Position numbers and translations under genes: made by a program. The notes below the pieces were generated by a model that was not told the DNA's origin, ran no database searches, and saw nothing but the letters and a program-made list of their open reading frames with translations. 34,683 nt of DNA, from contig JAADFQ010000116.1 of NCBI GenBank assembly GCA_013152835.1, forward strand, positions 1-34,683. Direction: 5' to 3'. The number at the start of each line of letters is the position of its first letter. Position 1 is the stretch's first letter. The DNA is from FCB group bacterium (lineage in GTDB: Bacteria > Fidelibacterota > Marinisomatia > Marinisomatales > J089). Shown here piece after piece: positions 11,821 through 15,380 of this stretch.

Positions 11821-13877
11821 CGTTTTTATCACCGGGGATTCTGTGGGGTTTATTTGCAGCAGCGATTCCTATTCTGATTCATTTAATCAGCCAGCGAAAT
11901 ACGCGGGAAGTGGAATTCAGTTCACTGGTATTCATCCAGGAATTGGAGCATGAAACGTTGCGGAATGTGAATTTACGCCAATGGCTGTTAATTCTGCTTC
12001 GCACGCTAATTATTCTGTTTCTGGTTCTGGCTTTTGCCAAGCCCGTTCGACAGGGAATCATCCCCTCCTGGGTGGCTGGCGAGCAGCAATCCCGCATCGT
12101 ATGTCTCGTGGACAATTCGGCGAGTATGGCTGCGGAGGGTCGAGGAATATCTTTCCTGGACCAGGCGAAAGTGCTGGTGCCGGAAATTCTGGCATCCATC
12201 AAAGGGGATCGTACGGTTGCCATTTATCAGACAACACCTTTTCAAAAGATTTATGACGGAGCGCCGAATTCAACAGATATTCAGTCCAAACTTTCGGATA
12301 TGGTTCAAACGGCCGGCAAGGATCATCTCTGGTCGGCGGTTGATTCCATTCTTGTCCGGGAAAAACCGCATGAACCCAATAAGGAATTTTTTATCCTGAG
12401 TGATTTACCTTCATTACCGTCCACGGAATGGACACCGGACTCCACCTGGCGGTATTATCTGGTTCCGTTTCCTGAAGTTGAGGATAATCTGTCCATTCAA
12501 TCGGCGGAGATACTGAGTGAAGTCAGACTGCCGACGTCGCTATTGAAGATCCAGACCGCACTGGTAAATAATGGCCAAATCGAAAAACGGAATATTCCCA
12601 TTGATTTATATTTGAGTGATCAACGGGTGGGGCAGGTTGTATCGACATTAGCTGCGAAAAGTCGGAAGGGCTATCTTTTTCAGGCTTTTCCCGGTGATGT
12701 GGGTATCATCAAAGGCCGGCTTGAAATTCCCGAAGATGATTTTTCACTGGATAATCGCTGGACCCTGGATATCTCGATTCCCGAACAGATTGTATGCAAT
12801 GTGACCACCGGGAAAGGGGAGGATGGTTTTTTCCTGAATCTGGCCTTATCCTCCATTGACAATCAAGCCGACTTTCTCATCGTGACCCGAAATCCCAATT
12901 CCGTCCCGGAAAACCTGCTCTTGGATGAATCGGATGTCTTTATACTGCATAATCCGGATTTCATTCCCGACAGGACGGCAAAAAACATCAAATCCTTCCT
13001 GGAAGCAGGCGGCAGCGGACTGATCTTTTATGGGGAATCACTGGCCAATAATCTTAGCAAAACGGCCCGAAATGCTTTGGGTCTGCCCGTATCGAAGGGG
13101 TTGCGTCAGGCGGGAGCCGATAATTATTATTCACTGAATTCGAAAACAACCCATGCCATTCTCTCGGACCTGAATTTGCGCAATTTGAAAGGTGAACTTC
13201 CCCAGGTGTTCCGATATATCCGGTTGCGACCCGGCCCCGAAGATGAAATCATTTTACGGTTGACGAATGGTGATCCGTTTCTTATTCGCCATTCCATCGG
13301 ACGGGGATCATTATTCATTATCTCCAGTCTCATGAATCTAAGCTGGAATGATCTTCCCATGAGGGGGTTACTGGTACCCTTGCTGCACCGGTTGTTAATC
13401 GTATCGGCAACGGATGAAACCCAGACGTCGCCGGTGGAAGTCGGAGAGCCCAAAATTCTGTCGATTCCGAGGGAAGTTATCAGCAATCAATGGGAAGTAA
13501 TCAGTCCCTCGGGAAAAAGCTTTCTGGTCATTCCTGATTTTAATACGGAATCACTGATCATTAATAATACGCTGGAAGTGGGCTCCTACGATATCCAGGC
13601 TGACGGATATCCCTATGCCTCCTTTTCGACCCGCCTGGCGCCGACAGAATATCCGGACTACCGGGCGGATCCTGATCGCCTGATGGATAGCTTCGCAGGG
13701 GCAACCGTACGCCGGATAACCCCCGGTCCGCGAATCAAAGCGGATTTGGAATCGATTCGCTATGGAAAATCCTTATGGCGTTTCTTTTTGATTCTGGCGC
13801 TGTTTTGTGCGGTTGCCGAAACCATTATTGGACGTTTAAATCCGGCCACGGTCCGGGCGCCAAAACATGAATCCTGA
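11817..13877 (+). CDS. BatA-type N-terminal domain / vWA-like membrane protein
   Basis: MTFLSPGILWGLFAAAIPILIHLISQRNTREVEFSSLVFIQELEHET...RQWLLILLRTLIILFLVLAFAKP; IVCLVDNSASM MIDAS-like motif. Confidence 0.85.
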   Translation: MTFLSPGILWGLFAAAIPILIHLISQRNTREVEFSSLVFIQELEHETLRNVNLRQWLLILLRTLIILFLVLAFAKPVRQGIIPSWVAGEQQSRIVCLVDNSASMAAEGRGISFLDQAKVLVPEILASIKGDRTVAIYQTTPFQKIYDGAPNSTDIQSKLSDMVQTAGKDHLWSAVDSILVREKPHEPNKEFFILSDLPSLPSTEWTPDSTWRYYLVPFPEVEDNLSIQSAEILSEVRLPTSLLKIQTALVNNGQIEKRNIPIDLYLSDQRVGQVVSTLAAKSRKGYLFQAFPGDVGIIKGRLEIPEDDFSLDNRWTLDISIPEQIVCNVTTGKGEDGFFLNLALSSIDNQADFLIVTRNPNSVPENLLLDESDVFILHNPDFIPDRTAKNIKSFLEAGGSGLIFYGESLANNLSKTARNALGLPVSKGLRQAGADNYYSLNSKTTHAILSDLNLRNLKGELPQVFRYIRLRPGPEDEIILRLTNGDPFLIRHSIGRGSLFIISSLMNLSWNDLPMRGLLVPLLHRLLIVSATDETQTSPVEVGEPKILSIPREVISNQWEVISPSGKSFLVIPDFNTESLIINNTLEVGSYDIQADGYPYASFSTRLAPTEYPDYRADPDRLMDSFAGATVRRITPGPRIKADLESIRYGKSLWRFFLILALFCAVAETIIGRLNPATVRAPKHES

Positions 13878-15138
13878 TTTATCCGTAAACCGGGAAAATG
13901 CCATTCTGGTGGGCGTTATTCACGGTCATAACGACGCCGAAAAGGTTCAGCTTCACATGGATGAACTGGCGCTTCTGGCGGATACGGCCGGTGCGGATAT
14001 TGCGGGGCGAGTGGTTCAAAAATTATCCCGGATCAATCCTTCATTTTTTGTGGGTAAGGGCAAAGCGGAACAGATTGTTCATCAAGCCCAGGAACTGAAT
14101 TGCCAGTTAATTATCTTTGATGATGATCTGAATCCCGGTCAGGTGAAAAATTTTCAAAAATTATCCGAAAGTATCAAAGTTATTGATCGTTCAGCCTTGA
14201 TTCTGGATATTTTTCGGAAACATGCCAAAACCAGGGAATCGAAAACCCAGGTTGAACTGGCCCATCTCCAGTATCTGCTTCCTCGTCTGACCAGGATGTG
14301 GACCCATCTGGAACGTCAGATGGGCGGTATCGGGACCCGGGCCGGGGCCGGAGAAACACAGATTGAGGTGGATCGCCGGTTAATTCGCAACCGGATTGCT
14401 CATTTAAAGAAAGAGTTGGTCAGAATCGGGAAGGAACGAACGATTCAAACCAAGCGTCGGGAGAACGGATTCCGGGTTGCTCTCGTGGGATATACCAATG
14501 CAGGGAAATCAACCCTGATGAACGCACTGACCGGAGCCGAGGTTTATATTCAGGATCAGTTGTTTGCTACTCTGGACACAACGGTCCGCAAGGTTCAACT
14601 GGATGAATCGCGGATCTTTTTCCTCAGTGATACGGTGGGATTTATTCGCAAACTTCCCCATCATCTGGTGGCCAGTTTTCGCAGTACCCTGGCGGAGGTA
14701 ACCCATGCCGATTTAATCTTAATTGTCCTCGATGCTTCCTCAACGCAGCTTCAGGAACATCTGGATACGATTATGTCGGTTCTTAAAGATTTGGAAGCCG
14801 ATCGGGAAAACCATGTATTAATTCTAAATAAAATTGATTTAATCGACGATGCTCACCACGTTCAACGCCTGCGCAATCAATTCCCGGAAGCCATCATGGT
14901 ATCGGCACGGAATCACCTGCGGTTGGACAAATTGTTACTGTCAGTAGCCGGAAAAATTGATCAACGGTTTATTACGGCTGAAGTGGAAATTCCCTTTCAT
15001 CAGGGGAAAAATATTGCTCTGGCTCAGGATGGTGTGGAAGTGTTGCATCGGGAAGTGAGTGCATCCGGGATTCGTCTTACGATTCGCGGGTTGACCGGTC
15101 GCGTGAACCAGATTTTACATACCGTATCCGAGTTATAA
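13867..15138 (+). CDS. hflX: GTPase HflX
   Basis: LERQMGGIGTRAGAGETQIEVDRR, GYTNAGKSTLMNALTGA, DTVGFIRKLPHHLVASFRSTL. Confidence 0.95.
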   Translation: MNPDLSVNRENAILVGVIHGHNDAEKVQLHMDELALLADTAGADIAGRVVQKLSRINPSFFVGKGKAEQIVHQAQELNCQLIIFDDDLNPGQVKNFQKLSESIKVIDRSALILDIFRKHAKTRESKTQVELAHLQYLLPRLTRMWTHLERQMGGIGTRAGAGETQIEVDRRLIRNRIAHLKKELVRIGKERTIQTKRRENGFRVALVGYTNAGKSTLMNALTGAEVYIQDQLFATLDTTVRKVQLDESRIFFLSDTVGFIRKLPHHLVASFRSTLAEVTHADLILIVLDASSTQLQEHLDTIMSVLKDLEADRENHVLILNKIDLIDDAHHVQRLRNQFPEAIMVSARNHLRLDKLLLSVAGKIDQRFITAEVEIPFHQGKNIALAQDGVEVLHREVSASGIRLTIRGLTGRVNQILHTVSEL

Positions 15139-15350
15139 AAAACCCCCGCCGGAGCGGGGGTTTAAATATCCATTGCCGGCGATTTTCAGGACCGTGATTT
15201 GACACGGTGGAGGCCTCCCGCCACCAGCAAACTTCCTTGATCCCGAATCCGGGAAAGGCCTGTTTTTTGATGCCGGAGTACAGCTTCCTAGGGTAATGAT
15301 TGAAGATCCTGAAATACGTTCCGACAATGGAAAGGTCAAAGAGCATTAGG
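15139..15350 (-). ncRNA. Candidate structured ncRNA (6S-like architecture), minus strand
   Basis: No credible CDS. Long closing stem pairs 15169-15191 with 15307-15331, with a CCGTG/CACGG mini-hairpin (15192-15207) and an AGGCCT/AGGCCT apical helix holding a TCCCG/CGGGA hairpin (15241-15254). Terminator with T6 lies downstream on minus strand. Strand and family are inferred. Confidence 0.45.
15140..15163. terminator. Intrinsic terminator, probably bidirectional; the U-tract is better on the minus strand
   Basis: Perfect 10-bp stem AAACCCCCGC/GCGGGGGTTT, loop CGGA. Minus strand reads GCGGGGGTTTTTTATAA (T6); plus strand only TTTAAAT. Confidence 0.85.
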
Positions 15351-15380
15351 AATCTATTTTTGAGCCGTAATGCCGGGCAA
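15351..15380 (-). promoter_or_regulatory. Possible sigma70-like promoter for the minus-strand ncRNA (TTGCCC-N18-TAGATT)
   Basis: gggcaa at 15375-15380 and aatcta at 15351-15356 on the plus strand read as -35/-10-like boxes on minus. Confidence 0.25.

Follow-up and report, generated by a model that had tools for sequence, protein, structure and literature searches.

In well-studied bacteria other than the one considered here, 6S RNA binds RNA polymerase and is a global regulator of transcription. In Escherichia coli the pRNA starts at U44, and the Rfam description of the Bacteroidales-1 family (RF01693) reads "6S-Bacteroidales RNA suggested." Next to the pRNA start lies a conserved adenine, and a GG at pRNA positions 4/5 or 5/6 is widely conserved (PMC8414754). 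In the 6S-1 RNA of Bacillus subtilis, the 3' strand of the bubble already folds into a small hairpin in the free RNA (PMC8876501), and Bacteroides thetaiotaomicron has a 6S RNA for which pRNAs appear in transcriptome data (PMC7366714). None of the papers searched names a 6S RNA together with Marinimicrobia, although an earlier listing is possible.

Identity of the RNA gene beside hflX

The window is the whole stretch of 34,683 nucleotides that was analyzed (contig JAADFQ010000116.1). The source is placed in the phylum Neomarinimicrobiota (Fidelibacterota, formerly Marinimicrobia/SAR406) by its closest hflX relatives and by the presence of the RNA described below in named genomes of that phylum. 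A structured RNA gene sits in the gap between hflX (13867-15138, plus strand), its convergent neighbor, and a gene for a sodium:dicarboxylate symporter (Pfam PF00375; 15604-16851, minus strand), its co-directional upstream neighbor. What the preliminary description had put forward here, a separate RNA of some 200 nt encoded on the minus strand, stands as a prediction, homologs with the same gene order matching the 6S model and the structure covarying. We are highly confident that the RNA is ssrS, the 6S RNA of a Neomarinimicrobiota bacterium, with a predicted function on RNA polymerase. Judged by its sequence relationships, it is a diverged 6S RNA, not merely one that is 6S-like in shape, and is missed by default Rfam annotation.

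At the gathering threshold Rfam returns no match in the window, and a whole-genome search of the source genome returned none for RF00013. The two families named in the preliminary description fared differently: the window copy does give a weak match to the full RF00013 model (15163-15329, 21.4 bits, under a cut-off of 46.4 bits that is a detection threshold and not a property of the RNA), while 6S-Flavo (RF01685) has no match in either the window or the source genome. Relatives come closer to RF00013. Two homologs whose DNA is 77% identical (L016 and L140) score 36.9 and 39.5 bits, and among 150 related genomes 26 have RF00013 matches, two of them over the cut-off (G048 and G027, both at 46.7 bits and at the same place as the match of our own model) and others at 46.3, 45.3, and 43.5 bits. 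Nearly all of these matches span model positions 1-187. They fall on the sites of the window's homologs, eight genomes (G031, G037, G024, G017, G019, G138, G047, and G004) being in both lists of matches.

The chain of relatives was closed with R1, a covariance model built here from 19 sequences. In the window R1 scores 158.5 bits (E 3e-38) on the minus strand at 15167-15335, the structured core of the RNA, with nothing comparable anywhere else. In relatives its coordinates nearly equal the RF00013 sites; on contig C35 of G031, for instance, the match extends over 2647-2814 with RF00013, 2662-2790 in the DNA search, and 2651-2813 with R1, and in Neomarinimicrobiota strain D37C9 RF00013 exceeds its cut-off at 2580-2759, where R1 matches at 2581-2755. 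When R1 was run on 1.2 kb of E. coli sequence spanning ssrS, the top hit was ssrS (496-650 versus an annotated 484-666), with a weak score of 17.2 bits. Counting against the 6S reading are the window's RF00013 score under the cut-off, the weakness of the E. coli match, the missing pRNA GG discussed below, and an alignment fitted to the structure. The 6S identity is nevertheless supported by the homologs that match the 6S model, by the covarying structure, and by the R1 hits to ssrS of E. coli and to a 6S-type RNA of Bacteroidota; membership thus follows from homology via successive relatives rather than from shape.

Relaxed matches to Ysr49, RsmY, anti-hemB, and others were rejected because they arise mainly from the terminator hairpin. 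Beside the 6S locus of one homolog (L113:1702-1806, minus strand) there is a match to FtrB, a Francisella sRNA, at 39.3 bits (cut-off 66), probably by chance.

Covariation and distribution in the phylum

A DNA search with a 201-base query found a match in 85 of the 150 related genomes, single in all but one. When homologs were aligned with MAFFT and folded with RNAalifold without prior structure (alignment A1), 20 of 30 apical-arm pairs displayed compensatory changes. We then used R1 to align 65 homologs; this alignment is fitted to the structure, which biases its pairing counts in favor of pairing, and in it 91.1% of cells pair, versus 69.3% in shuffles and 37-52% with the partners slid. The covariation among homologs that the preliminary description had called for is found in 51 of the 56 pairs, which have changes on both sides, the number of such cells being 832 versus 261 in shuffles. 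All 10 pairs of the closing stem (helix 1) change on both sides, each taking up to six pair types, a variation that would be hard to get through fitting alone.

These data bear on whether the region might be a chance structure or protein coding, for which one could cite two short ORFs of 89 and 68 aa that run across it on the minus strand. We assign that explanation a vanishingly small probability, since it is refuted by the covariation. It is also at odds with the lengths between helices, which vary among homologs, and with the fold of the window RNA, which beats 200 of 200 dinucleotide shuffles on both strands (z of -5.1 for the minus and -4.0 for the plus strand).

As for distribution, R1 matches 178 of the 245 genomes searched in this large and mostly uncultured phylum, nearly always once per genome, and 74 of its 94 good genomes; RF00013 at its cut-off recovers 2 of the 150 related genomes, and R1 thus closes an annotation gap. 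Three genomes (G084, G224, and G226) have two matches apiece, perhaps because the gene is duplicated or the bin is mixed. In the G015 family, a lineage whose 24 genomes measure 0.4-1.0 Mb and include eight that are at least 90% complete, R1 gives no convincing match, also with laxer filters, the best reaching 18.3 bits; loss or strong divergence of the RNA in this lineage is likely. No similar DNA was found in phage records.

Gene boundaries, fold, and predicted pRNA

The gene exhibits promoter- and terminator-like signals and is single copy in nearly all genomes, which fits a putative free-standing gene of about 180-200 nt. On the minus strand, TTGCCC (15375-15380) and TAGATT (15351-15356) are separated by 18 nucleotides, just as the preliminary description had it, and would be the -35-like and -10-like elements of a putative ssrS promoter; homologs often have TAAATT at the same distance. 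Of 98 homologs, 40 have the pattern TTG-N19..22-TAnnWT 16-36 nt upstream of where the model begins (mean 5.1 and maximum 9 in shuffles). At the other end, a hairpin at 15140-15163 with the stem AAACCCCCGC-TCCG-GCGGGGGTTT is followed by a T run to 15137. It has the 10 pairs that had been claimed for it, only 7 of which are G/C, and some of the T run lies inside the stem. By a strict rule, counted with no shuffle control, a hairpin and then a T run lie within 70 nt in 42 of 98 homologs. From these signals, we predict a transcript of about 205-210 nt (15137-15345). The terminator hairpin (15137-15163 with the T run) is directly behind the hflX stop codon, is flanked on either side by T-rich sequence, and may therefore terminate both hflX and ssrS, one from each direction. 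The RNA would accordingly be transcribed from its own minus-strand promoter and stop at a terminator that hflX uses as well.

The order of symporter gene, ssrS, and convergent hflX is kept among homologs: of 99 loci, 79 have a convergent hflX 3' of the RNA, 62 have a co-directional symporter gene 5' of it, and just 3 have neither, many loci ending early. The near-constant position beside hflX or the symporter gene and the overlap with the hflX terminator are what one would expect if this were a conserved regulatory RNA unrelated to 6S, for instance one acting on either gene as an antisense or 3' regulator, with no more than a 6S layout. We nonetheless hold this to be extremely improbable: the RNA has a promoter-like signal of its own, it is single copy throughout the phylum, and its similarity to RF00013 and to a Bacteroidota 6S-type RNA is family specific.

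The predicted 6S RNA is modeled as a rod in which a closing stem leads into an open central bubble, whose 3' side carries a small hairpin, and an apical arm follows. These are all the parts of the 6S layout that had been recognized from the sequence. The closing stem is formed by 15321-15331 (5' strand) and 15169-15179 (3' strand), and the inner stem, first described as 15307-15314 with 15184-15191, adjoins the bubble; both stems are at those places in the minimum-energy fold. The single mismatch previously noted in the closing stem is indeed a C-A on the plus strand, whereas on the minus strand it becomes a G-U pair. Together with the R1 score and the orientation of the promoter-like and terminator-like signals, this favors the minus strand. 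In the homolog alignment the inner stem (P2) extends over 15305-15314, the predicted pRNA template, and 15184-15193, with 94-96% of cells paired in its helices 4 and 5. Alignment with E. coli ssrS places the 5' side of the central bubble at 15291-15304. On the 3' side, the previously reported mini-hairpin CCGUG-UCAAAU-CACGG is located at 15192-15207. Its stem changes in step across homologs (e.g., UCAUG/CAUGA and CCGUUC/GAAUGG), in which the best stem has a mean of 4.9 pairs versus 3.9 in shuffles. The apical arm (15209-15290, helices 6-10) carries the near-invariant CAAAAAACAGGCCUU ... AAGGAAGUUUGCUG, and in helix 9 of the consensus structure CAGGCCTT pairs via CCTT with the AAGG of AAGGAAG. 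A pairing that had been suggested between the two AGGCCT motifs (15211-15216 and 15256-15261) was rejected and lies outside the conserved structure; one AGGCCT varies (AGGTGC, AGGCAT, AGGTCA) while CAGGCC is near-fixed, hence the two do not covary.

Alignment with E. coli ssrS, combined with the assumed E. coli start, puts the predicted pRNA start opposite C15302. The predicted pRNA is 5'-GAAGAUCCUGAAAU (plus-strand sequence 15302-15315) and would be about 8-14 nt long, starting GAAGAUCC from plus 15302. At the aligned place most homologs have a pyrimidine and then an A. In contrast to RF00013 RNAs, the window's predicted pRNA has no GG at positions 4/5, nor at 5/6; a GG is present in some relatives (GUAGGUUCC, GAAGGAUCU) and was counted in 14 of 65 homologs, an approximate figure as the count pattern misplaced the start in a few of the sequences. 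The pyrimidine and A also bear on an Ms1-type RNA, that is, a 6S-shaped RNA that binds sigma-free polymerase core and does not serve as a pRNA template. Ms1 of Actinobacteria is described as structurally related to 6S (PMC9130861), and shape alone would therefore not tell the two apart. We consider an Ms1-type RNA very improbable, given that both the sequence and the structure of the homologs agree with RF00013 across its whole length and that these two bases stand where the E. coli pRNA starts.

The mode of action proposed here follows that of the E. coli and B. subtilis RNAs (PMC8876501). The bubble would most likely imitate an open promoter, and the RNA would hold the housekeeping RNA polymerase holoenzyme as growth slows. 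The enzyme would then transcribe the short pRNA, beginning on the 5' side of the bubble and continuing into the inner stem, which would open and release the holoenzyme. For this organism, transcription, polymerase binding, pRNA synthesis, and growth-phase control are all inferred.

Comparison with described 6S RNAs

Among Bacteroidota, one RNA of Draconibacterium orientale (L232:1501-1691, minus strand) is matched by R1, by RF01693 (61.1 bits, over the cut-off), and by RF01685 (40.9 bits), and it has AAAGCAGGCCUU...GGAAGUUUG in common with the R1 RNA. This suggests that RF01693, RF01685, and RF00013 belong in one clan. The window itself gives no RF01693 match even at E values of up to 10, its RNA being linked to that family through L232 only. 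At five other Bacteroidota loci the RF01693 RNAs are missed by R1, and a 6S-Flavo search of 39 genomes gave one weak match elsewhere and none over the cut-off. In two Bacteroidales metagenome genomes, R1 matches at L237:1501-1700 and L238:693-892 (both minus strand; 40.8 and 38.4 bits) where Rfam has no match; these are likely unannotated Bacteroidota 6S RNAs or misassigned bins. R1 is a better model for the phylum and its neighbors, and the pRNA predictions are open to small-RNA data.

The window RNA resembles E. coli ssrS and RF00013 in its length, closing stem, and central bubble, in an apical arm with a GCC...GGAAGC-type motif, and in the conserved 3' bubble sequence CCACC. It differs in its neighbors, which are zapA and fau in E. 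coli. With B. subtilis 6S-1 it shares a 3' bubble hairpin in the free fold; the difference is that the 3' arm of the window hairpin has bases in common with the first pairs of the inner stem. In this model, opening the inner stem could lengthen the hairpin, a little like E. coli. We tentatively suggest, as a possibility short of an even chance, that Neomarinimicrobiota 6S is a phylum-wide subtype, lost in the 0.4-1 Mb lineage, with a fixed apical motif, a pRNA without the usual GG, and a release step mixed between those of B. subtilis and E. coli, which would link canonical 6S RNA to the Bacteroidota 6S-type families.
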